DNA from: a virus
Length of the DNA stretch: 27,401 bases
IMG/VR virus record: IMGVR_UViG_3300042503_000615
Coordinates: 1 to 27,401 of that record
Reading direction: 5' to 3' (one strand)
The stretch's first letter is position 1. Every line of letters begins with the position of its first letter. The notes under the pieces were generated by a model that saw only the letters and a list, made by a program, of their open reading frames with translations, searched no databases and was not told the DNA's origin. Position numbers and translations under genes: made by a program. This document shows, one piece after another, positions 341-23,179 of this stretch.

Positions 341-3300
341 TTATAGTCCAAATCGTCCGCGTGTGCTGTTGAAATTCTGTAAGATTTCTTCGGGTGTCAT
401 AGCCCGAGAATAGACACGAACCATTGACACATCCCCCAACCATCTATAGTCAGTTCCATTTGTGGTATAGAATCCTTGAGTTCCTGTCTGACGATCACCC
501 ACCGAAACAGTTCTTGCGCTATACACTTCTGCTCCATCAAATGCTGCTTCCCTTACCAGAGAACCGTTCGCATACATCTGCAAACGAGTTTGAGCAGGCG
601 TTGTGCTTGTAGCGGGAGAATAATCAGAAATGAAAACCAAGTGCGTCCATCGGGAGGTAATATTGTATGGAGCAGTCCACTGTACAACCCTTTGACCACC
701 AACAGCCATGCTCCAATAGTAGATGTTGGAAAGTGGTAACGCGCCATAATACGGAAGCCCTCCCGAACCAGCAAACATTTTAAGTTCGCCGTCTGTTGGA
801 GTTGATGGCTTGACCCACGCTTCCCATGTCATTTTTTCCCTGTTCGTCGGAATCACATCCGAGTTTGTGGTGATGACAGTGGTTTTCCCATCAAACACGA
901 TGGAATTAGTTGCTATGGCAGGGCGACCCAACACAGAACCGATTGCGCCAGACGGGCTAGTGTCGTAAACAGTTCCGACACCGTTGTTCAGCAGGTCTTC
1001 AATGCTTGGCTCGGTTCCGTCCACAACATCAATTCGCGGACGGAAGAACAGGGTTTCCGCACCAGGAGTGTTGTCCTGATAGTGCAGCACTCGCAATTGT
1101 GATGCACTCGCCGCAGCAGATCCCCATATCAAATCATTATAGTTAGAAAGCGAAGCGTAGGTCAGTCCGTTTCCACTTCTCACATAGAATCCACTTTGTG
1201 GATCGTCTGCTCCTGTGGCTGTTCCGAAAGGATGCACATGACCAACAACAAGAATCCATGTGTTTTCTTTTCCAGTAAACACAGCGGATCCAGCATTGTT
1301 TGCAGTAAAATACGGATTGGTCTGTACTGTACCGTCAAACTTGCTGGTATACGAACCGCTTGCTGCTCCAAAGTAAAAAGTTCCATTACCAAGCACCCGT
1401 CGATTCACCCAAACCGAATATCTGTACTTCTTTGTCCCAATGATTGGCACTGCGCCGCTAAAGAATCCGCCGTTTTGATTGAACAACACATTAGTGGATA
1501 TGGTAGAGTGGTTTTCTGCTCGCCAAACAGTCTCCATGTTTCCCCAAGGATCAGAATACCGCTCTATAGAGTTGTTCATGGGGCTTCCGTAAAGAGTAGC
1601 CCACGAAGGATAACTGCTTGTTGTACGAGAAGCGCGACCGTCAATGTCTCCCAGTGCATACGGAAGCAGTTGGAACCTGCTCACATACAGTTCGGTTCCA
1701 GCAGAAAGAGAAGCAATAGCCAAACCAACTAGAGTTGCAGCACTTTCAGATGCTCCTGTCTTGGTTCGGCTCACGCGATACCAACCGTCACCAATATTTT
1801 CAATTGTCGCCTGTGCAGCCTCGCTTGTTCCAAAACTGTGTATGTACGCTTGTGTATCGGCAGGAAGAGGGGTTCCGTCTAGTTTACGAACACAAACACT
1901 AAAAGTCCATGCAGTTGCAGTGCGAGTATCCCGCCAAGCAGCAGTATTGGTGATGTAGAAATTCCTATTAGCCGCCAAAGTGATTTTATAGACTTCATCC
2001 GCTCCCAAAGCGGGTGTTCCCTCTTGCTGAGTAACACGAACCGCTGACAAGTCACTGCTAGGATCTCCACGCAACCACACAGGATCTACAGGCTTCAGTA
2101 CATTTATAGGAGTGGGAACAAAACTCTGATTGCGGAGCAAATCTCCGCTGAATCCAGAAATGTACTGATCCACACAAGCAGTCTTACCCGCATCAAACGA
2201 ATAGACTAGATTCTTGGAAATCAAATAGTCTTCCGTGTTTGGAGGCGACACCGAAGCAACCCTGCGTCCAGTGGAGCGAGACTTGTTCAGTCCCTGATCG
2301 CCGTTGAGGAACACATCAATCTTGTTTTGAGAGTCACGAACCGCTTCTCCGACACATATGCCCAAGCACGCTCCCGACACATGGGGATCGTAAACAATGG
2401 TGTTCTGCGGGGTGCTTGTTTGATCGCCCGATGGACGGAATCCAAACACTCCTGTTGGCGGCAAGGACGCGCCAGGATACATCACCGTGCCATTCGGAAG
2501 AATGCTGTAGTACGCACTCGTCTGCTGTGCGGCTGTTCTGTCCTGTTCGTTGTACGAGCGGCTGAACAGCACCGAGTCAAATCGCACTGATGGATTAGCC
2601 GAAAGATCACAGTTCGTGTTTCGTGATCCAAGCAAGCCGTAGCCGTAACTCAACCCATCACGGGTGGACTTGTACACCACGAAAATGTCTGCATCATCGG
2701 TGATCTTCAGTGAACGCTTGAGGTATAGGTGCTGTCCCGTGAGCATTGCTGCTGCACTGCTGCCAGTGCCTGTGGTGTATCCAAGTCCAACCACGCCACC
2801 AAGAGTAACCCCCGCGTACACCGAAGCAGGAGCAAACACGATTCCACCGTTGAACGAAACGCCTGTTGCGCCGCCGAATCCTGCTGTTTGCAGGGTGGGA
2901 CGAAGTTTGTCAACGGTGACTCCTGCGTACACAATGCTTGATATTCCAGCACTGCTGTTTACCGTGGACGCAGTTGGCACAACAGGATTGTTTCCGTTCC
3001 ACATTCCAAGAATGGTGAAACAGTGTCCGTTTCTAGCCGTGTGTGGAGTAGTGTTGTGGAACGAAGAGTCCATGTAGAATGTGCGACCGTATCCCGCAAA
3101 AACAGTTCGCTTTACAACGCCGTCTGCTCGGTAAACAATGTTTGGCTCCACATACTCTATTTCAAAAATGGTATTGTCGTATGCGGTGTGGACTGCTCCA
3201 GAAGGAAACAAGTCTGGGCGTTGGATTGATAGTTCCTGCGCTATAATACGCCTCGCTGCGTTGAGAAAGTTACCGCTACTATACGGACCATAACTGTAGA

Positions 3301-6109
3301 CCGAGTAATCAATACTATAGATGCTCGCGCTACTAGAAGGAGAGGAACCTAAACCAACAGCCATGAGTCTGTCTGTCGTAAACCCACCACACAACCCATT
3401 GAAAACCCATTGCAGTCGCGTAATAGGATCTGTTGTATAAACCTGCCTAGTCCATACACCCTGCGCCGCACCTGAATTAAGAGTGCTTGTGAAAATACCG
3501 TTCCACTTGTCCCATGTAGGCGGCAGGGCGTGATTCGCAGACGGTGAAGCGTCTGTCCACACATCAGCACTTGCACCATTGGCAACCGAGCCACACACGC
3601 CGATGTTCTCTGGCTTCAGCCACAGCACCAAGCCGTTCATGCCCTGTGGTGTAAGATTGCTTTCCCGATTAGCATACCAAGCAGCAGTGCCTCCAAGCGG
3701 AGAGCCTGTGGGATTGTGAGCAGTGACTCCGAATTCATTACACACCGTATAGGTGTAGCCCAGACCAGAATCCAAGAATTGAGAGCCTAGAGGAGCAGTT
3801 GTTCCGTCTACTCCCGTTTGTGCCGTAGAGCCGATGTACGGATTGTAGCCATTAGGATAGAAGTCACCAGTGGTTCCGTACCACTTGCCGCTGCTGTACG
3901 AGCCGCCAGGCACGGTGTTCTTGTAGGGGTGAGCCGCAGGCAGATTGTCGGCAAGACCGTATTTGTGGGCAAGATAGCCCTCAATCTTCTGCCGATCACT
4001 CTCTCCCACATCGCCCTGATAGCAAAGGATTTCTGCGATCTCGCCATCGAATGCTCCGACCAAAGAATCAAACCTCTGCTGCCCTATTTGAAGAGCGGCT
4101 GATGCATTTGCTGCCGCTGGTGTCCACGCTTGTGCCACAGTTCCAAGACAAACCCCGTCAACAAACAGAGACATTGGACCAGAGTTGCCTGTGCTGCAAG
4201 TCAGTGTGTGAGAAATGAGTTTCCACTCACCTGTTGTGCCAATGCTTCCAACGATTCCACTGATTTCACCAGCAGACCTCCAACTAAACGCAGCAATTTT
4301 CGGAACAGTAATATCTCCACCTGTTACACCAAAAAGTATTCCACGATACGAACTACGGTCACCAAGTAGCACATTTCCATTTTGGTTCGCACCAAAGTTG
4401 TTCATTGTTCCAATGCGGCGCGGCTTGGCAACTGCAAAATACGAAGTGGAAAGAGTGAGTCCTAGTAGTCCCATAGTTGGACCGCTAAATCCAAGAGAAA
4501 CCATTGAAGAAAGCGAAGAAGGACCACTGAAATTGTATTGAATAGGTCGAATATCAACCGAAGAGTGAGTATTCACCGATTCCTGTCGGATGGCTGGAGT
4601 GAGCCAGACAGTAGAATTCGGATAAGCCGAAGAGTGATAAAAAATATGTCCACCGACAAGACTCGTCCAAGAAGTAATTCCCCATATGTCATCTGTTGTA
4701 ACTGCTGCTCCGAGTCCATCAGATCCAACAGTGGCATTGTTCAGAACATATCCCCAGTCAGCAGTAATCCCCTGACTTGTTGTTCCAGGTATGTTGTAAG
4801 CACTCAACCACACCTGAAGAGTTGCGCCTCGAACCTGATTGGGCAAGAAGTATCCGCCGCGCAGATCGTTGAATGTACGAAGAGCGTATGGAGTGTACCG
4901 CCCGACAACAGGTATTTCGCTGTATGTGGCTTGAGCAGAACTGGTAACCGTGTTGTCGATTGCCTTCTTGACAAGCACAGAACCAAACATCCTCATGCCT
5001 GCTGGGTGAATGATTTTCTTCAGAACATTGAAATAAGTGTCCAACGATACCTCGGACTTCAGTTCATACGAGAAGTCCTGATAGTAGTGTCCGTCCTGAA
5101 TCTTCTTGTTGGACGAAACCTTGCCTCGGTTGCCAGAGAAATAGCCAGCATAGTTCGTAACTGCACTACGGAGAGCGAAAACCTTTGCACTCTGCGCGCC
5201 AGCCTCGCTGAAGATGTTTACCAACACATCTCCCGAGTAGTTCAGACCTGAATTGGAAATACCGATCTTCTTGATGCTTCCCGCAAGACCAGTCTGCTCA
5301 ATCTTTGCGGCAAAACCAACACCACGCGAATCGGTGACTGTGACTGTATCGCCAATGCGGTATCCGTTACCTGGCAACTCAATAAAGAACTGACCAAGAA
5401 CAGAATACGCTGTTTCGCTCCACTCCGATCCGTCTTTAGAGATGATTACAGTCTGGTCTGGTGTGAATGTTCCATTGATATCCGTGATGAAGAATTCGGT
5501 GACAGGCAATCCATTGAAAGAATACTGCACAACACTGTTGATGAACGCACTAGCAACCAGTTGGGTTCCATCGTACTGATATATCTGACCGTTCTTGCCG
5601 CCGAACAGATTCGACCCGTTGCCACTGGTTGTCTTTATGGATCTAGGCTCAATCCACTGACCATCAGATGCTTTGAGAACATCGGTCTTGGGATAGTACA
5701 GTTCAAGATCGCTGTCGTAGAGAATACGGAACAAGAACTTGTACGCGCTCTCCGTTCCCTTGTTTCCGTAGAAGTCGCGGATCTTTTTCAGCAGAGTCTT
5801 TTTGTTTGGTGTCTTGCCGTCAGGGTTCACCGCAAACAGTTCAGGAAACGAAGCAAGATAGGTTCTCTTGAAATGATCATAGAACTCATCTGCGTTTGCA
5901 TCAATATCGTAAATGGTGTCCATCTTGGACACAATGTAGCCAGCATTCCCCTGCTGCTCCATCCACTCGTAGTACGCCTTGATGAACAGCACCAACTTTG
6001 GGTAATCTGTGCGAATGAAGTTGGGAAACTGCTCCCGAATAAACGGAGAGAGCAGATTCTCAAGTTCTTCGGCGCGAGTCTCAAGTATGATGTTCTTTAT
6101 ACCACTCAT
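341..6109 (-). CDS. Giant baseplate wedge (gp7-like) / multi-LamG receptor-binding fusion protein, 1922 aa
   Basis: Residues about 1-390 resemble the C-terminal part of T4 gp7. They include FPNFIRTDYPKLVLFIKAYY, then FYGNKGTESAYKFLFRILYD (T4 gp7 has a matching STKGIEASYKFLFKVLYNEE), and near 365-385 an IIHPAGMRMFG segment matching RFVHPVGFGF of gp7. The rest is beta-rich. One LamG-like unit spans about 420-745 and ends with DRQKIEGYLAHKYGL. A second begins near 830 with MNGLVLWLKPENIG, and further units follow at about 1110-1370 and 1390-1545. Another beta region covers about 1560-1745. The last LamG-like unit spans 1745-1922, with MTWEAWVKP and VSMVRVYSRAMTPEEI. The inferred role is a wedge-anchored adhesin whose N-terminus docks on the baseplate and whose modules bind surface glycans. 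It starts 4 nt after gp6 stops, matching the T4 6-7 order. The gp7 relation is from recalled sequence, and the domain borders are approximate. Confidence 0.8.
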   Translation of the reverse strand: MSGIKNIILETRAEELENLLSPFIREQFPNFIRTDYPKLVLFIKAYYEWMEQQGNAGYIVSKMDTIYDIDANADEFYDHFKRTYLASFPELFAVNPDGKTPNKKTLLKKIRDFYGNKGTESAYKFLFRILYDSDLELYYPKTDVLKASDGQWIEPRSIKTTSGNGSNLFGGKNGQIYQYDGTQLVASAFINSVVQYSFNGLPVTEFFITDINGTFTPDQTVIISKDGSEWSETAYSVLGQFFIELPGNGYRIGDTVTVTDSRGVGFAAKIEQTGLAGSIKKIGISNSGLNYSGDVLVNIFSEAGAQSAKVFALRSAVTNYAGYFSGNRGKVSSNKKIQDGHYYQDFSYELKSEVSLDTYFNVLKKIIHPAGMRMFGSVLVKKAIDNTVTSSAQATYSEIPVVGRYTPYALRTFNDLRGGYFLPNQVRGATLQVWLSAYNIPGTTSQGITADWGYVLNNATVGSDGLGAAVTTDDIWGITSWTSLVGGHIFYHSSAYPNSTVWLTPAIRQESVNTHSSVDIRPIQYNFSGPSSLSSMVSLGFSGPTMGLLGLTLSTSYFAVAKPRRIGTMNNFGANQNGNVLLGDRSSYRGILFGVTGGDITVPKIAAFSWRSAGEISGIVGSIGTTGEWKLISHTLTCSTGNSGPMSLFVDGVCLGTVAQAWTPAAANASAALQIGQQRFDSLVGAFDGEIAEILCYQGDVGESDRQKIEGYLAHKYGLADNLPAAHPYKNTVPGGSYSSGKWYGTTGDFYPNGYNPYIGSTAQTGVDGTTAPLGSQFLDSGLGYTYTVCNEFGVTAHNPTGSPLGGTAAWYANRESNLTPQGMNGLVLWLKPENIGVCGSVANGASADVWTDASPSANHALPPTWDKWNGIFTSTLNSGAAQGVWTRQVYTTDPITRLQWVFNGLCGGFTTDRLMAVGLGSSPSSSASIYSIDYSVYSYGPYSSGNFLNAARRIIAQELSIQRPDLFPSGAVHTAYDNTIFEIEYVEPNIVYRADGVVKRTVFAGYGRTFYMDSSFHNTTPHTARNGHCFTILGMWNGNNPVVPTASTVNSSAGISSIVYAGVTVDKLRPTLQTAGFGGATGVSFNGGIVFAPASVYAGVTLGGVVGLGYTTGTGSSAAAMLTGQHLYLKRSLKITDDADIFVVYKSTRDGLSYGYGLLGSRNTNCDLSANPSVRFDSVLFSRSYNEQDRTAAQQTSAYYSILPNGTVMYPGASLPPTGVFGFRPSGDQTSTPQNTIVYDPHVSGACLGICVGEAVRDSQNKIDVFLNGDQGLNKSRSTGRRVASVSPPNTEDYLISKNLVYSFDAGKTACVDQYISGFSGDLLRNQSFVPTPINVLKPVDPVWLRGDPSSDLSAVRVTQQEGTPALGADEVYKITLAANRNFYITNTAAWRDTRTATAWTFSVCVRKLDGTPLPADTQAYIHSFGTSEAAQATIENIGDGWYRVSRTKTGASESAATLVGLAIASLSAGTELYVSRFQLLPYALGDIDGRASRTTSSYPSWATLYGSPMNNSIERYSDPWGNMETVWRAENHSTISTNVLFNQNGGFFSGAVPIIGTKKYRYSVWVNRRVLGNGTFYFGAASGSYTSKFDGTVQTNPYFTANNAGSAVFTGKENTWILVVGHVHPFGTATGADDPQSGFYVRSGNGLTYASLSNYNDLIWGSAAASASQLRVLHYQDNTPGAETLFFRPRIDVVDGTEPSIEDLLNNGVGTVYDTSPSGAIGSVLGRPAIATNSIVFDGKTTVITTNSDVIPTNREKMTWEAWVKPSTPTDGELKMFAGSGGLPYYGALPLSNIYYWSMAVGGQRVVQWTAPYNITSRWTHLVFISDYSPATSTTPAQTRLQMYANGSLVREAAFDGAEVYSARTVSVGDRQTGTQGFYTTNGTDYRWLGDVSMVRVYSRAMTPEEILQNFNSTRGRFGL

Positions 6110-10221: not shown

Positions 10222-12657
10222 TTATGCCTGTGTCAGCAGTGCGCGTACCGTAATGTTGTTGGGCAATTCCGTTGCCGTGTAGCGAATGTAGTTGCCAACG
10301 GTGTCTGCGCCTGCGCTCCATCCGCTCCAAGCAGTCCCGCCTGGTGAATACTCCCATGTTCCGTAGGCTGAACCCGTAACAGTATCGTCAAGCACAAGGA
10401 AGTTCGTGGCTGTGTTGTACAGACGGAATCGGAGATCGGGAATAGTTCCACTCCAAGAGGACACCTGTTTCCACGCAAACTGTCTATTGGAAGCAGAAGA
10501 TTTCGTGAGCGAAGGTTGGTAGTGCGAATCCTGATTGGTGTCCTCGTACAGACAGGTGATGGAATAGATGCGGGTAGGAACGCAGATTTCGCCCATGATG
10601 TCAAACCCAATCTTGAACTGAATGTAATCGGACACAGCAGCGGCTTGCAAATCAGCACCCACACCAACTTCCGTCCATGCACCGCTGTTGTCGTCTATTC
10701 CACTTGTGCGATACCACAGTTTGTACGATTCAACAGGGAATCCGAGTCCGTATGTGCCTGCGTATTCCATGTGGTCAACATACACATGGTAGAGTTTGCT
10801 TGCGTTCGTGGTTGCAAGTTTAGGCGTAATTACTGCCTGTCTGCTTGTGGATTCGTAATACGCATCTGCACCAAATGGAAATACATATAGCCAGTTTTGT
10901 CCTGATGTTGTGCTGCTGGGAATAGCAAACATCCAACCGTCTTCTGTCCAAACGGTCAATGTTCCCTGTGGGAACAACCCATCACTTGCTCCCGATGGAG
11001 TAGTACTAAGTTTCAATCGGCTAAGGTTTGCTCCAATATACTTCTCAAACTGTTCCCCCGCTGTAACATACTGAGTCACATAAGTCCCCAATCTTCCGCT
11101 TGAGGTTGTTATAAAAAGACGATCAATTGTGGAAGAGTAGTCTACTTGTGACATTGCCGCTGAAGCAGTATAGGTTACAGTACCACCTGGCGGAACTTCA
11201 ACCATAGAATCCTGAAGCCAAGATGTACTTGCATTTGTGAGAGAGGACACAGGGCATCGGTAAATTCTGGATGAGGTGGTAAAATAAAGACTCTTGACAC
11301 CAGATGCAGAACCGTGATTCACGGTAAAGATTCTTCCACCATTCACTTGTGAAATAGTTCCTGTTGTGGCAACCGTTCCTGTTTTGTGGACGAATGCGCT
11401 CACGCTTGTTCCGCTTGAAGGGCCTCCCGTGAGCGCACCCACGGTCAACGATGCCCTCATGTTGTATTTTACAATTGTGGCATTTCCTGTTGTAAGGGTT
11501 GCGTTTACAAGGTATAAATCGTGACTCGTAGCACTACGACCATCATCATCTACAGCAAGGGTTGCTGATACCATGCGGGTTCCAGAGTGAACAGTATGGG
11601 TTCCCGAACCAGATGTGCTGAATGTCTGTATGCTTCCGCCAAGTGTCGTGGAAACCGAAAACTGATTGGCTCCCAAGTTTGTGGCAATAACATAGTAAAC
11701 AACAGATGGCGACAAACCTGTTGGCAATGTTCCTGATGTTGTGAATAAAACAGGATCACCCGCATTGAGTCCGTGACTGCTAATAGACAATATGTTTGCC
11801 GTTCCGCTGTATGTCACGGTTGCTGTTGCTGTTCCCAATGTTCCAACGGCATCTGTCAGAAAATACGAAGCACGAATGTTATCAACTGTCGTGGCTTCTG
11901 GAATTGTAGTACCACCGTTTGTAAATGTGCTGTAATTCAATCCTTTTATGAGATGCACACCACCAAGCAAGATGTTTGTGGCATTTGTTTGAGCAACGGC
12001 AATACGAATTTCTTCAATCACATACGATGTGCCTGCACTCAAATTTACGGGTGCGCTGATTGTGAGCGAAGTGTCGCTTGCAATGGCAGTAATATCATAC
12101 CATGTGGTGACTGCGGTTGGATCTGTGGTTCCAAATCCAATTCTTGCTCCAACAGCAATTCTGTCTGTGGTGAACTGTGTGCTTGAACCTGTGATGGTGG
12201 CAGAAGAACCACTTGTGGAAACTGTTCCTGATGTATGCTTATACACCATCGCCCTAAGCGAACGAATGTTTTTGTTTCCCGTGACTGTGGTTCCCGATAG
12301 CGTGATGTATCCCTTGTAGGTCAAGGTAAATGTGCTTGAGTTAAACTCCGTGAGTGTTATGGTTCTTGTTGCTGCGGCACTAGCATTAGTCGCTGCAAAA
12401 ATCCAGTAGATGTTGTCCGACCACTTGTAGACATACGGCATGAATTGGGAACCAACAAAAATTTCAGGAATGTTTACAATGGCTGATGAATCTGGAGAGA
12501 TGTACTTGTCCTCGGGGTTTGCTCCCGTGGCTTGGCGAAGGAGCGAGGAAAGCAGGGTCTTGGTGGAGTCGTATCCTGCCGTGACACCGACAGCAGGAAG
12601 ACCACCAGTGAATCCTAGTGTTGCACCCGTGAAATGATGTTCTACCGCTGCTTTCAT
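10222..12657 (-). CDS. Large beta-rich tail fibre / virion protein, 811 aa
   Basis: The protein is rich in Thr, Ser, Gly and Ala with few charged residues, as in fibre and adhesin proteins. Residues about 300-345 contain a recurring phage-fibre module: [18 protein letters not shown], then [16 protein letters not shown] and a [13 protein letters not shown] end. A related stretch at about 150-215 has [18 protein letters not shown] and [16 protein letters not shown]. The C-terminal 250 residues are more varied, with tryptophans and cysteines, and may be a receptor-facing or chaperone-like domain. The start overlaps the collagen-like gene by 4 nt (ATGA). It could be a side fibre or a baseplate-bound adhesin. 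No enzymatic motif was seen. Confidence 0.75.
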
Positions 12658-13457
12658 ATGATTCTCCGTATCTTGACGAACACTCCGACTTTCTGTATTC
12701 CCGTATTGCTATCTATGACATATTCAATCAAGTCTCCAGCCGAGATTCCGCTCCAAGCAGTGACTCCCGTATTCTGATTCTTTGTTTGAGATGTCAGGTT
12801 CGGATAGTCTCCACCCACAAAACTCGTAAAGGTGGAGTAGTCGGAGTAACTGCTCTTTTTCAGATCAACGCTGATGCTGCCCGTCTGACCGCCGAAAACA
12901 GCCCATTCAAGAACCTGTGCATCGTATGCAACTCGGCGGAATCCCTTTGATCCTGTAGACACATCATCAGGAGTGGTGTCTATGAAAAATCCTATGCTCT
13001 CTTCCGTTGGACCAGTGGCTCCCGTGTTGCCTTGCGGTCCAGTGGCTCCTGCTGCACCATTATTTCCAGTGGCTCCCTGCGGTCCTGTTGCCCCTGTCGC
13101 TCCCGTTGGTCCCGTTGGTCCCGTTGGACCTGCTACGGTAGAGTCTGCACCTGTGTTTCCTTGCGGTCCTGTTCCTCCCGTATTTCCTTGCGGTCCTGTT
13201 CCTCCCGTATTTCCTTGCGGTCCTGTTGGACCTGTTGGACCTGCTACGGTAGAAGCAGTTCCTGTAGCACCTTGCGGACCAGTGTTGCCTTGCGGTCCAG
13301 TGGCTCCTTGCGGTCCTGTTGCACCAGTTGCTCCTGGAACATACACAACAGGAGAGAACCCCAAAGACCGCCACGCGGTTCCTGTCCACTCCCATCGTAA
13401 ACCGTTGAACTCATAAATCTGTCCGCTGCTCGGTGAACTTGGAAAGTTGATGCTCAT
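12654..13457 (-). CDS. Collagen-like tail fibre protein, 267 aa
   Basis: Three parts are visible. Residues 1-40 ([20 protein letters not shown] with a following WEWTGTAW) are an attachment-type segment seen at the start of many phage fibre proteins. Residues about 42-150 are Gly-X-Y collagen repeats dominated by GPQ, GNT, GAT and GPT triplets, interrupted twice by a STVAGPTG break. Residues about 155-267 are a globular beta domain ([16 protein letters not shown] near its start) that could be the receptor-binding or trimerisation head. Collagen repeats in phage fibres form trimeric coiled stalks. The gene overlaps both neighbours by 4 nt. The repeat number is likely to vary between relatives by slippage. 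Confidence 0.88.
13008..13334 (-). repeat. Collagen-coding tandem repeats with exact 27-nt units
   Basis: The DNA that encodes the Gly-X-Y stalk is internally repetitive. Two identical 27-nt units occupy 13156-13182 and 13183-13209, followed by an 18-nt partial third copy to 13227. A second identical segment of 20 nt, beginning GTTGGACCTG, occurs at 13122-13141 and again at 13234-13253. Nucleotide-level identity means recent duplication or slippage rather than only protein-level conservation. Confidence 0.9.
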
Positions 13458-16268: not shown

Positions 16269-17177
16269 TTACACTCGCAGCAGCGATTCGAGTTCCTTCA
16301 ACGCAACACTCTTGTATCGCGGATGCAGAACCTTTATGATGCGCTTTGCTTCGTTGACACCGTTTTCGTAGGTGTAGTTGCTTACAGAATACAGATTTAC
16401 CTGATCGCCCGATACACCCATGTATCTGCCGATGTAAGTTTCCCAGAAATCCACAGTGCCAGAAGGACTGTAATTCAGACCTTGTGTTTCCGTTGTTGGA
16501 TACTCATCATCCTCGCTACCAACCACACCGCCAACCACAGAGTAACTGGTGTTCTGCTGCGAGAGCGGATCGACATATGCTGTTTGGTTTGCTCCGCAAT
16601 CTCCGCTTGGTCTACTCACTTCAAAATGGTGCAGTGCAGTGAAACTCGGATCTACGCGATAAATGGTGACCGTTTGAGAAGTTCCGCTAGTGAAGCCTAG
16701 CACAGCATCGCCTTCGGAAAACTGCGCTCCGCGAACGGTGAGTTTGCACAGTTCGGGTTGATAGTCGATCACGGTAGTGGAAAGATTGCCCTGCTGTATG
16801 GTGACTCCGCTGACCAGTTCTGTGCTGTAGAAGAATCCACCAGAGGTGGTTCCGATGTAAACCGAAGAACCGCCATGCTTGTTCTGTATGTACTCTTCCA
16901 TAGCAGCAGAAGACTTATACCATCCGTGATACGGATCAACCACATCATTTGTCAATAGAATGATCCAGTGAAAAGACGGATCTCCGTAAACTCGCTCGGC
17001 AATGTGTTCGGGACGCTCGCCGTCTTTTACATCGTATTTGAGAAAGACACCATCTCCGCTCTTTATGTCTTCGTTCAGTGCAACCCTGCGAAGAATGTTT
17101 CGGGTAAGAGCGTAACGGAATGTGTCTCCGTCACGAACAGGATATTGCATGACAGGAAATTTGGAAAAGTACGCCAT
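16269..17177 (-). CDS. 53: Baseplate wedge protein gp53
   Basis: This 302-aa protein carries the gp53 signature in its first 110 residues: MAYFSKFPVMQYPVRDGDT, then DGERPEHIAERVYGDPSFHW and LTNDVVDPYHGWYKSSAAM. This is the LysM-like part that clamps the wedge around the tube. T4 gp53 is only 196 aa; the extra C-terminal ~190 residues are beta-rich and include a SGTSQTVTIYRVDPSF stretch, and the end (YENGVNEAKRIIKVLHPRYK) again looks family-typical. The ATG shares one base with the gp48 stop codon. Confidence 0.9.
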   Translation of the reverse strand: MAYFSKFPVMQYPVRDGDTFRYALTRNILRRVALNEDIKSGDGVFLKYDVKDGERPEHIAERVYGDPSFHWIILLTNDVVDPYHGWYKSSAAMEEYIQNKHGGSSVYIGTTSGGFFYSTELVSGVTIQQGNLSTTVIDYQPELCKLTVRGAQFSEGDAVLGFTSGTSQTVTIYRVDPSFTALHHFEVSRPSGDCGANQTAYVDPLSQQNTSYSVVGGVVGSEDDEYPTTETQGLNYSPSGTVDFWETYIGRYMGVSGDQVNLYSVSNYTYENGVNEAKRIIKVLHPRYKSVALKELESLLRV

Positions 17178-18712
17178 TAGAAGCCCTTGCTGATGTCTTC
17201 GCGGGTAAGCAGACCCATCTCGCTGAATTGCAGAGTCATGGTAACTGCCGTGGGAGCGTTGTTTTCAAAAGCACTCCATATGGAGTTTGGTGTATAGTCA
17301 ATCGAAACCGAGTTGAGCGCACAACGAGCAATCTTGGGGATATACTCGTTTTCGACAAATCCACCTTGGTTGGGATTGGGGTTGGTTGACAAGAAACGAA
17401 TCTCGAATTCCGCAGGAACGCGGAGAATCACCTCAACCTTGTTCTCTTCTTTGCTGTCTGATTCAGCATCTCGCGCAGGATGCGAATGGTATCGGAAAGT
17501 TTCTATGATGTCCCGTACTGTATCAGCCTCTATCTGATTGCGAGGATAGAACTCCCAACTGAAATTGAAGTTACGAAAGTCTTTCTGCTTGAACAGTTTT
17601 TCAAGAACAGGGTTCAGAACCTTTCCTGTTCCAACACCAACCGCTCCACCCAATCCGCGACCAAGACCAGGAACAGATTGCAACGCTTTGTCTGCTCCAA
17701 CATAAGCACCCTGCATTGCAGTATCTAGGGGAGAACCAGCAAAACTTCCAATACCCTGAGCAAGTGCTTGGCTAGTGTCCTCATACTGAAATGTGTCTTC
17801 GTTGTTGATTTTTGTGCAAAATGGCAAATACACAGACACCATCTGATCGTAGACTGCATCGTTCTTGAAAGCCTTTGCCAGACCAACACCGCCTGCGCCG
17901 CCAATCGCACCAGCCGCGCCGCCCACTCCCGCTCCAATCAGTGCGCCTTTACCGCCGCCCAACAAGAATCCACCAAGACCTCCAAGAATTGCTCCCGCGC
18001 CACCGAATGTGATAGCGGCATCGCCTGCGCTTGTAGACTCTATCTTTTCAGCAAGTCGATTCTGTACAAGCAGACGCTCTTGCTCGTCAAGACCAACCTT
18101 CCCGATTCCATTGTCAAGATCCGCCGAAATGTCAGTTACTCTAGTCTGATAGGAACTGATGGTTTCTTCAAGAAGTTGTTTTGCCTGACCAGGATTTGTA
18201 CGCAGAAGACCAGCAATGCTGTCGTTGGTTGACGGATTTACGGTTTTCAATACATTCGGATTGTATGCTGTTTCAAGCAGTGCTGATATTTTCTCACTAC
18301 CCAATCCGCTGTTTTCGACCATGCCGCGTGTAAGCACATCGTTTTCGATCAGGCTGTGTAGTGTCTGCAAATCGCCAAGAGTCTTTTCAGACTCCTCTTT
18401 TATCTTGCTTGCTCCCTCCTTCAAGTCTCGCGGTTCAAAACGCCAGAACACCTTGAACTGCATGACATGGGGAACCTGACCTGTTCCGATGTCCTGCGGA
18501 TACCGAAGTATCCGTGGGCGACTGCGCGAACCCCGTTCCTGCTTTGGAACGCCTTCCAGCGCAGCGGCAACAGGATCTTGAATTTGTGAATTGAACACCT
18601 CTTTGGCGTAGTTGCTGCTGCGGTTCGTAGCCGTAACAGCACCAAGCGGTTCTCCATTGCTGGCAACGGGAACATTTGAAGTTCTGTTGAAATGGTTGGG
18701 TATGGAGGACAT
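17177..18712 (-). CDS. 48: Baseplate tail-tube cap protein gp48
   Basis: The ATG at 18712 (MSSIPNHFNRTSN) gives 511 aa and has an AAAAGGA ribosome binding site 10 nt upstream; a longer frame from 18811 would overlap the divergent promoter and is rejected. The tube-like fold is split: residues about 80-95 (VMQFKVFWRFEPRDL) and the C-terminal ~195 residues, with FRNFNFSWEFYPRNQIEADT, IARCALNSVSIDYTP and PTAVTMTLQFSEMGLLTRED, which are typical of gp48/gp54. Between them is an insert with helical segments and, at about 230-283, a strongly hydrophobic glycine-zipper stretch (GGFLLGGGKGALIGAGVGGA). T4 gp48 is 364 aa, so the insert explains the extra length. gp48 caps the hub and begins tube growth together with gp54. 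Confidence 0.85.
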   Translation of the reverse strand: MSSIPNHFNRTSNVPVASNGEPLGAVTATNRSSNYAKEVFNSQIQDPVAAALEGVPKQERGSRSRPRILRYPQDIGTGQVPHVMQFKVFWRFEPRDLKEGASKIKEESEKTLGDLQTLHSLIENDVLTRGMVENSGLGSEKISALLETAYNPNVLKTVNPSTNDSIAGLLRTNPGQAKQLLEETISSYQTRVTDISADLDNGIGKVGLDEQERLLVQNRLAEKIESTSAGDAAITFGGAGAILGGLGGFLLGGGKGALIGAGVGGAAGAIGGAGGVGLAKAFKNDAVYDQMVSVYLPFCTKINNEDTFQYEDTSQALAQGIGSFAGSPLDTAMQGAYVGADKALQSVPGLGRGLGGAVGVGTGKVLNPVLEKLFKQKDFRNFNFSWEFYPRNQIEADTVRDIIETFRYHSHPARDAESDSKEENKVEVILRVPAEFEIRFLSTNPNPNQGGFVENEYIPKIARCALNSVSIDYTPNSIWSAFENNAPTAVTMTLQFSEMGLLTREDISKGF

Positions 18713-18743
18713 TCGGCGGTATTCCTTTTGAAGAATGGCTACA

Positions 18744-18751
18744 TATTTATG
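18744..18751 (-). promoter_or_regulatory. T4-type late promoter for the large minus-strand operon
   Basis: Minus-strand CATAAATA matches the late consensus NATAAATA used by T4-like phages. Transcription starting about 11-13 nt downstream would begin near 18732 and give a leader of about 20 nt carrying the gp48 ribosome binding site. Two other elements in the window have the same geometry. Confidence 0.65.
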
Positions 18752-18752
18752 T

Positions 18753-19196
18753 ATGGCATACAAAGGACATTTTCGACCCGAAAACCCCTCCAAGTACATA
18801 GGGAATCCCACACAGATCGTCTACCGAAGTATGTGGGAGCGCAAGTTCATGAAGTACTGCGACCAAAGCCCTAATGTTGTACGCTGGGCATCAGAAGAAG
18901 TGGTGATTCCGTACTACAGCCCGATAGACAAAAAGGCACACAGGTACTTTGTGGACTTCTTGGTGGAGATCAAGACTCCCGAAGGCATGAAGACTTGGCT
19001 CGTAGAGATCAAGCCAAAGAAGCAGTGCCGCGAACCAGAGAAAAAGAAGCGGGTGACCCGAACCTATATTTCAGAAGTGAAAACATGGATCACCAACAAG
19101 GCAAAGTGGGAAGCAGCAAAAAAAGTGTCTGATGCTCGGGGATGGGAGTTCAAGATCCTGACCGAAGACGATCTGTTCGGAAGGAAGTCAGGATGA
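18753..19196 (+). CDS. 4: Head-completion nuclease gp4
   Basis: The ATG at 18753 gives a 147-aa product starting MAYKGHFRPENPSKYIG, aligned with the usual start of gp4 proteins; another ATG at 18735 would add six residues, and neither has a clear ribosome binding site. The family-defining stretch is IVYRSMWERKFMKYCD followed by WASEEVVIPYYSPIDKKAHR. A PD-(D/E)XK-type nuclease core is visible as D68 in YFVDFL and E85-x-K87 in LVEIKPKKQ. gp4 is needed to finish packaged heads before tail joining and has been shown to be a nuclease in T4-like phages. The gene is divergent from gp48 and overlaps the next gene by 4 nt. Confidence 0.93.
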   Translation: MAYKGHFRPENPSKYIGNPTQIVYRSMWERKFMKYCDQSPNVVRWASEEVVIPYYSPIDKKAHRYFVDFLVEIKTPEGMKTWLVEIKPKKQCREPEKKKRVTRTYISEVKTWITNKAKWEAAKKVSDARGWEFKILTEDDLFGRKSG

Positions 19197-20445: not shown

Positions 20446-20472
20446 CTGTACAACCTCTTGAAAAGGATCGCT

Positions 20473-21183
20473 ATGTCTACATTGAATTTGACTTCTGCCG
20501 CATTGCCGCAATACACCATGACTCTGCCAGTGTCTGGTATCGTATCAAAATTCCGACCATTCTTGGTGAAGGAGGAGAAGATCCTCCTCATGGCACTGCA
20601 ATCCAAGGATCACAATCAGATCAACGATGCAATGAGAAATGTCATTCTCGTATGCACGAACGGAAACATGGACACCAAGAAACTGTGTTCTGCTGACGCG
20701 GAATATGCATTCCTACAGATTCGATCCAAGTCGGTGGGCGAAGAAGCAAAGCCAGAAATTACCTGTTCGAATTGTGGGAAAGCGGTTTCCGCCAAAATCA
20801 AACTTGACGAAATCACGATCAAGAAGGCAGACAAGCCACAGCCCGATCCAACAATACAGATCAGCGATACGCTATCAATCGTGCTGCGTTATCCATCCAT
20901 ACACGATGTCGATCATTCCAAGAACGAGGTGGAAGTGGCGTTCGATCTTGCAAAGCGGTGCATTGAATCCGTGATACTGAATGAACAGGTACATGAAGCA
21001 AAAGACATCAACCCACAAGAACTATCGGATTTCATCGACAATCTGCTGCCAGACCAGTTTGCAAAAATCATGGACTTCATTGCCAGTGTTCCCGAACTCG
21101 TATACGAATTCAAGTATCCGTGTCCCGAGTGCAAGCAAGTAGTGAATGTACACCTGAAGAGCGTTTCTGATTTTTTTCGCTAG
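20473..21183 (+). CDS. 26: Baseplate hub assembly protein gp26
   Basis: The ATG at 20473 follows AAAAGGA by 5 nt; a TTG at 20458 would add five residues and lies too close to the predicted transcript start. The 236-aa product (T4 gp26 is 208 aa) has the family N-terminus LPQYTMTLPVSGIVSKFRPF followed by LVKEEKILLMALQS. It has two CxxC knuckles (C98/C101 in CSNCGK and C217/C220 in CPECKQ) that probably form a zinc ribbon; the C-terminus is VNVHLKSVSDFFR. gp26 acts in assembling the baseplate hub. The last codons form a T-run immediately before TAG that is in phase for -1 slippage, giving a predicted second, longer product (next entries). Confidence 0.9.
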   Translation: MSTLNLTSAALPQYTMTLPVSGIVSKFRPFLVKEEKILLMALQSKDHNQINDAMRNVILVCTNGNMDTKKLCSADAEYAFLQIRSKSVGEEAKPEITCSNCGKAVSAKIKLDEITIKKADKPQPDPTIQISDTLSIVLRYPSIHDVDHSKNEVEVAFDLAKRCIESVILNEQVHEAKDINPQELSDFIDNLLPDQFAKIMDFIASVPELVYEFKYPCPECKQVVNVHLKSVSDFFR

Positions 21184-21207
21184 CCCTCTGTCACAATGAC
21201 TTGGGGG
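21171..21207 (+). promoter_or_regulatory. Predicted -1 programmed ribosomal frameshift signal at the gp26 end
   Basis: The zero frame reads GAT TTT TTT CGC TAG. The seven Ts at 21171-21177 fall in the canonical X_XXY_YYZ register (T_TTT_TTT). After a 6-nt spacer (21178-21183), bases 21184-21206 can fold: C84-G206, C85-G205, C86-G204, U87-G203, a 2x2 mismatch, then G90-C200, U91-A199, C92-G198, A93-U197 around a CAA loop (last digits of 211xx/212xx). The fold is modest in stability. The signal directs ribosomes into the open -1 frame. Confidence 0.6.
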
Positions 21208-21365
21208 CATACTACCAACTAAACTTCATGCTGATGCAGCATCACAAGTACTCTTTGGAGGAATTGGAAAATCTAATTCCTTGGGAGCGAGAGGTATACA
21301 TACAAATGCTGACTGCTCATCTCAAAAAAGAACGCGAGAGGGTAGACAAAAATAAGCGGGTGTGA
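21177..21365 (+). CDS. -1 frame C-terminal extension of gp26 (predicted frameshift product)
   Basis: After a -1 slip, translation would continue for 62 codons to TGA at 21363-21365, making a 297-aa fusion of gp26 residues 1-235 plus SLALCHNDLGAYYQLNFMLM and onward. The extension contains HHKYSLEELENLIPWEREVY and ends in a lysine/glutamate-rich helix. The first ATG inside (21228) would give only 45 aa and has no ribosome binding site, while the frame is open back to the slippery run. The pattern of an aromatic/hydrophobic helix, an 'S-x-x-E-L' turn and an 'IPWER' helix resembles the C-terminal parts of tail-assembly chaperones such as lambda gpGT. The tape-measure-like gene follows 29 nt later. 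It might alternatively be a standalone gp51-type small protein. Confidence 0.65.
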   Translation, partial: SLALCHNDLGAYYQLNFMLMQHHKYSLEELENLIPWEREVYIQMLTAHLKKERERVDKNKRV

Positions 21366-21394
21366 TCCCTACATCATGAGATAAAGGGAGTCTC

Positions 21395-23179
21395 ATGGCT
21401 AATCAATATTCAGAATCCGACATCAGGCGACAGTTGGCAGCGCGACAAGGACGCGGTCCTGGTGGTCGGTTTCTGCCTTTGTCACCCGAGCAGCGTCTAC
21501 CTGGTGTCCGTTCCTCCAGAATGGCTTCCTCTGCGGCTGGTGCGCCGCCCATAGGCATGGCAGCGGCTGCGGGTCAAGCAAGCCCACTCATGGTTTCTGC
21601 GGCTATCCTGCTGAAAGAAGCAAAATATCTGTCTATTGATGCGGAGTTTGCCGAAAGCCAAGAGGCAAAGAGGATATACGCAAAGATACAGGTCATCCGC
21701 AAACTGGCACAGAGATCGGCAGACTCCGCAGCAGTAACTGAAAAAATTGACACTGCAATCAAACCCGTAGAAGAGCAACTGCGTAAGAAGGCATCATTTG
21801 CGGAATTTGTCAGAGAGCGGGTTCAAGAATTCCGCAAGACGCTACCAGAAAGACTTGTTTCACGAATTCCTGTGGTTGGCGGTCTGCTTGGGGGATTCCT
21901 CCGTCAGCGCAGAGAAGCACAGGAAGAGATGAGCGACTACGAGCGTCAAGTCTTGAGAAGAGGCTCGGGTGGATTCGGTGAAGGCGGAAGGGGAATGATT
22001 GGCGGCATGGGTGGTTTGGCTGAACGAGAACGCCAATTTGAAACCACCAAAGGAGCAGTGTTCCCGACCAAGACCATTGAAGCAATCTACAAAGAAGTTG
22101 TTGCAATTCGCAAGTCCGTGGACAAGATTGCACGGGTTTCTGGCGGTGGATCTAGCAGCATCCTAGATTCTCTAAAAAATCGTTTCTTTGGAAGACGAAG
22201 CCGCATAGGTCGTCTGTTCCGAAGAGGAAGAATTGCTGCAAGGCGGCTCATGCGCGGACTGCGTAGAGGCGGAAGAGGCATTTTGAGTGCGGCTGGACGA
22301 GCAACAAGAGCGGTCGGTCGCGGCATCGGTCGCGTAGCAGGCGGCATCGGTCGCGGAGTTGGGCGCGTAGCAGGTGCTGTGGGCAGAGGAATCGGTGGTG
22401 CAGCATCTGCTGTCGGAACCGCAGCATCTACTGCTGCAAGCGGAACAGGAAGTTTTCTATCCAGTGCTTGGAACTGGACAAAAAATGCGGCTAGTTCCTT
22501 GAACCCCATGAACAGCATAAAAGGTGCAGTGAAGTCTGGTGCAGGAAAAATCATGAAGAGCGTGGTATCTCTGCCAGGCTTGGGTGCGCTCATAAGCGGA
22601 GCCATTGGAGCATTGGACATCATGGGCATCAAGAATGACCCATCAATGAATCCTGAAGAGAAGAAAGAGCAGATCGGCAGAACACTCGTAGGAACGCTTG
22701 GATCAGCAATAGGATCAGTAATCGGCGGTGCAGCAGGAACTGCTATTCCAATTCCTGGCATCGGAACGCTGATTGGAGCAATGGGTGGTGCATGGGTTGG
22801 AGAAACACTGGCAGAAGCACTTGCTGATGCCGTTGGAGGAAAGGGCATCTACGACATGGTGTCGTCAATTCCTGGAGTCGGATCACTCATCTCGGTTGAT
22901 GAAGGAATGTCAGGAGAATCGACCGAAGGAACCGTATCTGCTCCTGCCACCGCAAACACCACAGTAGGAAAAATGGCGAATCAGTACGCTGCCGAGCAAG
23001 ACGCTTTGCAAAACGCAACAGCATCAGCAATGAGCGGACCACCGTCAAACCCAACAGTGAATACCGCGAATGTTCGGTCGAATGTCACGAACAACATCAA
23101 CAACTTCAATGACGATCTTCGCATCAGGAACAACGAACCCACAATCAGGACGATGCAAGCCGCGTCCCATATGTTCTAA
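21395..23179 (+). CDS. Tape-measure-like / gp29-type hub protein, 594 aa
   Basis: Length (594 aa against 590 for T4 gp29), position after the gp26 region and composition suggest the hub/tape-measure protein that sets tail length. It lacks clear sequence identity to gp29 that I can confirm. Parts seen: a basic, low-complexity N-terminus (1-60); a charged helical region (70-185); a glycine-rich linker (189-207); an arginine/glycine region (262-335) with repeats of the GRGIGRVAG type; and a hydrophobic glycine-zipper region (385-485), including GSAIGSVIGGAAGTAIPIPG. An asparagine-rich C-terminus follows (550-594). The hydrophobic part could enter the host membrane during DNA delivery. A GGGAG ribosome binding site lies 4 nt before the ATG. 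Confidence that it is coding is high; the tape-measure role is inferred. Confidence 0.75.
   Translation: MANQYSESDIRRQLAARQGRGPGGRFLPLSPEQRLPGVRSSRMASSAAGAPPIGMAAAAGQASPLMVSAAILLKEAKYLSIDAEFAESQEAKRIYAKIQVIRKLAQRSADSAAVTEKIDTAIKPVEEQLRKKASFAEFVRERVQEFRKTLPERLVSRIPVVGGLLGGFLRQRREAQEEMSDYERQVLRRGSGGFGEGGRGMIGGMGGLAERERQFETTKGAVFPTKTIEAIYKEVVAIRKSVDKIARVSGGGSSSILDSLKNRFFGRRSRIGRLFRRGRIAARRLMRGLRRGGRGILSAAGRATRAVGRGIGRVAGGIGRGVGRVAGAVGRGIGGAASAVGTAASTAASGTGSFLSSAWNWTKNAASSLNPMNSIKGAVKSGAGKIMKSVVSLPGLGALISGAIGALDIMGIKNDPSMNPEEKKEQIGRTLVGTLGSAIGSVIGGAAGTAIPIPGIGTLIGAMGGAWVGETLAEALADAVGGKGIYDMVSSIPGVGSLISVDEGMSGESTEGTVSAPATANTTVGKMANQYAAEQDALQNATASAMSGPPSNPTVNTANVRSNVTNNINNFNDDLRIRNNEPTIRTMQAASHMF

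Follow-up and report, generated by a model that had tools for sequence, protein, structure and literature searches.

The mechanism of G-T frameshifting in phage λ has been published, and the 2016 review that describes it still gives T4 as the exception (PMC5009743). The tail assembly chaperone (TAC) genes of T4-like phages were identified by Vladimirov, Gautam and Davidson in 2022 (Virology 566:9-15; 10.1016/j.virol.2021.11.003). Poly-T sequences are mentioned as known -1 signals in the TAC-N genes of these phages (PMC12846349), and in some of the phages the short and the fused form are stated to have genes of their own (PMC10885494). Here, we analysed 27,401 nt from an uncultured virus, a 27.4-kb fragment (the window, i.e., the whole stretch) that encodes a T4-type tail module. 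Its gp26 locus, located 5' of a tape-measure gene (Table 1), very probably encodes a tail assembly chaperone in two forms, TAC-N and TAC-NC, via -1 ribosomal frameshifting; we infer the slippage itself, its rate and the chaperone role from sequence and by analogy. The original prediction implied novelty for T4-type hub genes. That does not hold, as two articles credit poly-T TAC frameshifting to Vladimirov et al. 2022 (PMC10885494, PMC12846349). Going by these, the frameshift of the window is a rediscovery, correct and well supported, in a phage that is new, the main idea having been in print since 2022.

Table 1. Features of the gp26 locus and of the gene that follows it, in window coordinates.
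Feature	Position	Strand	Remarks
Shine-Dalgarno AAAAGGA for gp26	20461-20467	+	read directly; 5 nt 5' of ATG 20473
gp26 / TAC-N, short form, 236 aa	20473-21183	+	stop TAG 21181-21183
Weak Shine-Dalgarno-like GAAGAG	21156-21161	+	site of GAGGGA in most relatives; possible upstream stimulator
Slippery heptamer T_TTT_TTT	21171-21177	+	T_TTT_TTN in register in 160/160 relatives
Downstream hairpin, likely frameshift stimulator	21183-21208	+	-14.4 kcal/mol (MFE)
TAC-C / gp51-type extension, -1 frame	21177-21365	+	62 codons post-slip; TGA 21363-21365; fusion 297 aa
Shine-Dalgarno AAAGGGAG of the next gene	21383-21390	+	read directly
Tape-measure-like protein, 594 aa, presumed chaperone client	21395-23179	+	phrog_167 tail length tape measure protein, 1.4e-8

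The 3' end of gp26 reads GAT TTT TTT CGC TAG, with T_TTT_TTT in the X_XXY_YYZ register, and the predicted fusion junction is ...SDFFSLALCHNDL... This ending, the open -1 frame and the length of the fusion are all as originally claimed. The -1 frame is closed directly 5' of the T run by a TGA codon (21168-21170), so that no longer -1 ORF exists, and the frame can be entered only via a slip within these few nucleotides or from a later start codon. The window's + strand has no other run of at least seven T. The start codons present in the -1 frame are TTG 21201, ATG 21228 and ATG 21234, and none of them has a strong Shine-Dalgarno sequence at normal spacing, in agreement with the earlier statement that a separate start lacks a ribosome binding site. 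For gp26 itself, AAAAGGA is a good ribosome site. A hairpin had been placed at 21184-21206 behind a spacer of 6 nt; it is indeed present, but its limits differ slightly (Table 1) and the spacer is 5 nt. Overall, the earlier numbers were right to within 1-2 nt.

In Rhizobium phage RHph_I1_18 the gene order is identical, and the tape-measure gene is annotated there. Elsewhere in the window, on the minus strand, a tail-tube-cap (gp48-type) protein (17177-18811) has a glycine-rich middle insert that matches the tape-measure family phrog_794 (2e-6), an unusual feature in proteins of this kind. On the same strand, a 1922-aa ORF (341-6109) combines a baseplate-like N-terminus with a long tail resembling lectin-type (LamG-like) domains by eye, and another gene (12654-13457), with collagen-like G-P-Q-G-x-T-G repeats, probably encodes a fibre.

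To collect relatives, IMG/VR was scanned with gp26 and, separately, with the extension as a query; 160 sequences, the window counted, carried both parts. Clustering at 80% identity reduced them to 103 loci, and a stricter set comprised 67 loci of less than 60% identity. The extension was in the -1 frame with respect to gp26 in all 160 sequences, and in all of them T_TTT_TTN was in register inside the gp26/extension overlap, which supports the -1 slippage. Two kinds of relatives had been named as evidence that would speak against it, namely those with no open frame between the T run and ATG 21228 and those with a separate start and ribosome binding site in place of the slippery run; neither kind was found among the sequences with both parts. 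The heptamer was TTTTTTC in 57, TTTTTTT in 42 and TTTTTTA in 4 of the 103 loci, the codon 5' of it ended in T (NNT) in every locus, and a 0-frame stop followed 0-3 nt past it in 90. The same arrangement was found in S-ShM2, Sf-CH8, Mosig, DSL-LC03, S-N03, ME01 and S-CRM01, as well as in Vibrio XZ1 (Schizotequatrovirus), Agrobacterium Atu_ph04 and Rhizobium RHph_I1_18, the last with T_TTT_TTA farther from the stop; it thus occurs in Kyanoviridae cyanophages, Pelagibacter phage Mosig, and Vibrio, Agrobacterium and Rhizobium phages. The first Phe of the slip site was encoded by TTT in 67/67 loci of the stricter set (background 0.70, P 3e-11), whereas a conserved control Phe in the FLVK motif of the same gene was encoded by TTT in 29 and by TTC in 25 loci. 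Therefore, the constraint acts on nucleotides. Taken together, the frameshift signal of gp26 is almost certainly real.

A T run could also produce the fusion if RNA polymerase added or dropped a U on it, so that part of the mRNA encoded the long form. Such a homopolymer run is present in the window, and 12 of the 103 relatives have 8-9 T. However, in 61 of them the run has only 6 T before a C or an A, which is short for polymerase slippage, and this explanation is therefore very unlikely. It is also at odds with the fixed register, with the flanking codon that is always NNT, and with the ribosome-type stimulators around the site. Another explanation assumes two proteins, with gp51 as a short independent gene expressed from an internal start or through stop-start coupling, which is how most database records annotate it. 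In its favour, a separate 'baseplate hub assembly catalyst' is given in many records, and a few phages have an ATG that overlaps the stop codon of gp26. Nevertheless, no start with a usable ribosome binding site lies 5' of the conserved core in the window. In 41/103 relatives, the open -1 frame lacks a start codon up to 60 nt beyond the slip site, and only three relatives have a start for the extension with a strong Shine-Dalgarno sequence, so an independent start for the extension was rejected. Moreover, the conserved residues of the extension begin at the slip Phe-Phe, 5' of any such start, the conservation of the heptamer would be unneeded, and T4 gp51 is a fused protein of both parts. We consider this explanation highly improbable. 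A sequencing or assembly error at the T run of what would be one continuous gene is next to impossible and already refuted by the comparative data: homopolymer indels are common errors, but the -1 relation recurs across 160 sequences, which come from independent contigs, and across many isolate genomes, and the 6-T versions are less error-prone.

To return to the frameshifted pair, its two parts were matched to known families. gp26 matched PF12322 (T4_baseplate, 2e-56) and phrog_150 (1e-56), and the extension matched phrog_634 ('baseplate hub assembly catalyst', 1.3e-25); by tblastn, the extension was found in 658 and gp26 in 1,515 phage records. The extension also matched, weakly, the last 50 columns of phrog_150, suggesting that some members of this family are annotated as already fused. 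T4 gp26 matched the short form of the window (5e-19), and the extension matched residues 200-244 of T4 gp51 (E 4e-5), in which a PF12322 domain (residues 1-201, 4e-52) is followed by the extension in a single frame. These matches identify T4 gp51 as a gp26 paralogue that carries the extension fused in frame, and indicate that in T4 each of the two forms has a gene of its own. They also support the placement of the gp51-type function in the extension, as was originally suggested. T4 has 26 and 51 as two separate genes in divergent, opposite orientation (3803-4429 and 4480-5229 of the T4 record), and gene 26 keeps Phe-Phe as TTC TTT, with the heptamer lost. Vladimirov, Gautam and Davidson are said to name genes 26 and 51 in their 2022 work. 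A full-length gp51 protein was present in 1,339 records, most of which belong to phages of Escherichia, Klebsiella, Shigella, Acinetobacter and Aeromonas. Judged by these sequences, the same product pair arises either via a frameshift or via two paralogous genes.

Structure prediction was run on gp26 and the extension separately, not as a fusion. The AlphaFold2 model of gp26, predicted with confidence (pLDDT 93), had the T4-type gp26 fold and matched T4-type hub chaperones in a viral fold library. Some phages that are distant from T4 also have a predicted fold of this type, namely Ralstonia phiRSL1, Campylobacter CP220, Leptospira LE4 and Bacillus SP-15. The sole solved TAC that was matched by fold, 3FGX (described as such in PMC9603447), gave a non-significant match (rmsd 1.7 Å over 50 columns, E 4.1, probability 0.35), and a search by sequence found no relatives of solved structure. 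The original prediction proposed to compare the extension by profile methods with both T4 gp51 and λ gpGT; the former was matched, but hhalign found no sequence homology to λ gpG (E 0.32) or gpT (E 0.93), the sequence family of Phage_TAC_2 and Phage_tail_T. The λ proteins match other Pfam families. The proposed analogy with λ G and GT is supported as a two-form logic of -1 frameshifting next to a tape-measure gene. Thus, it is gene order, this logic and published work, not homology to λ, that suggest a chaperone role.

In the relatives, the 0-frame 5' of the heptamer usually encodes (E/K/Q)-G-(L/I), and the choice of codons there is biased: Glu is encoded by GAG in 36/52 cases, compared with 26.5% elsewhere (P 1.5e-10), and Gly by GGA or GGG in 65/94, compared with 36.5% elsewhere (P 1.4e-10). 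Both biases persist at 60% clustering (P 1e-6 and 4e-5, respectively). The resulting element, GAGGGA and its variants, lies 7-14 nt upstream of the heptamer (e.g., loci L155, L026 and L141), and its match to the anti-Shine-Dalgarno sequence ends about 7 nt 5' of the slip site and is far stronger than in synonymous shuffles (z about -10). The pairing reached -4 kcal/mol or better in 89/103 relatives, whereas GAAGAG of the window is weaker (-2.9). With no start codon at the slip site, the element cannot be used to initiate translation there. Conserved and upheld by codon choice, it is likely to act as a frameshift stimulator, and its distance to the slip site is comparable to that of the dnaX stimulator.

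The hairpin downstream of the slip site in the window is more stable than expected from dinucleotide shuffles (z -3.5) and synonymous-codon shuffles (z -3.9). In the relatives, the downstream hairpins had a mean z of -1.02 +/- 0.19 versus synonymous shuffles, compared with -0.26 to -0.50 for control regions, and a hairpin universal across the family was rejected, as it is strong in only part of the relatives. The hairpin arms paired better with their own partner, in cis, than with those of other loci (z -4.3, three controls -2.6, -1.3 and -0.2), and in the clade of the window the hairpin was kept with changed base pairs. The support from covariation and shuffles is moderate and strongest in the window's own clade, and the hairpin of the window is a likely frameshift stimulator. 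Across the relatives, the strengths of the Shine-Dalgarno-like element and of the hairpin showed no trade-off (rho -0.02), although the window, taken by itself, fits such a pattern. We give about an even chance to the T4-like TAC cassette being a dnaX-like two-stimulator signal, in which a Shine-Dalgarno-like element about 7-8 nt 5' of T_TTT_TTN would be under codon-level selection in most of the family, and a clade-specific hairpin would be strongest where this element is weak, as in the window. If so, the ratio of the short to the long form would be set by ribosome-mRNA contacts and tuned per lineage. The stimulatory elements, the upstream one in most relatives and the hairpin chiefly in the window's clade, may be new, and they are the part most worth following.

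According to the mechanism that we propose, the majority of ribosomes would terminate at the gp26 TAG codon, producing TAC-N, while a minority would slip by -1 nt at the heptamer, aided in the window's phage mainly by the hairpin, and would produce TAC-NC, the last 62 residues of which would form the gp51-type domain. By analogy with λ gpG and gpGT, the N part would form a coat on the tape-measure protein, the product of the next gene, and the less abundant long form would use its C part to bring in tail-tube or hub components. Both forms would depart before the tail is completed. Many T4-type phages, once counted as the exception to G-T frameshifting, would then use frameshifting, with T4 itself using two paralogous genes. 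For T4 gp26 and gp51, hub proteins that have long been obscure, this would mean a testable role as tape-measure chaperones. Additionally, the free-standing 'gp51' would be a mis-annotation in many cyanophage and marine phage records. It is annotated in this way in, e.g., NC_015281, PV340853 and HQ615693; the annotated start codons resemble gene-caller artefacts, a pattern of systematic mis-annotation, and in DSL-LC03 the extension was missed altogether.

Compared with known systems, the locus resembles E. coli dnaX, in which, as described (PMC5600365), the heptamer lies between an upstream internal Shine-Dalgarno sequence and a downstream RNA structure; however, dnaX is an unrelated gene, and in the TAC relatives both stimulators vary between phages. 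With λ G and GT it shares a -1 frameshift that would yield a minor, C-terminally extended form directly 5' of the tape-measure gene (H in λ), but the slippery sequence of λ is GGGAAAG, homology is not detectable, and gp26 is larger and has two CxxC motifs. In T4, gp26 is a homologue of the window's short form, and gp51 is one of the complete fusion and ends in the extension, although T4 encodes them in two genes of opposite orientation without the heptamer and the window in one gene with a probable frameshift. The closest system is the TAC-N/TAC-NC pair of T4-like phages, with which the window shares the gene family, the poly-T -1 signal, the logic of a short and a long form, and the place in the tail module. 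It differs from the described cases as a new, uncultured phage, with the hairpin of its clade and the Shine-Dalgarno-like element of its relatives as possible further differences.
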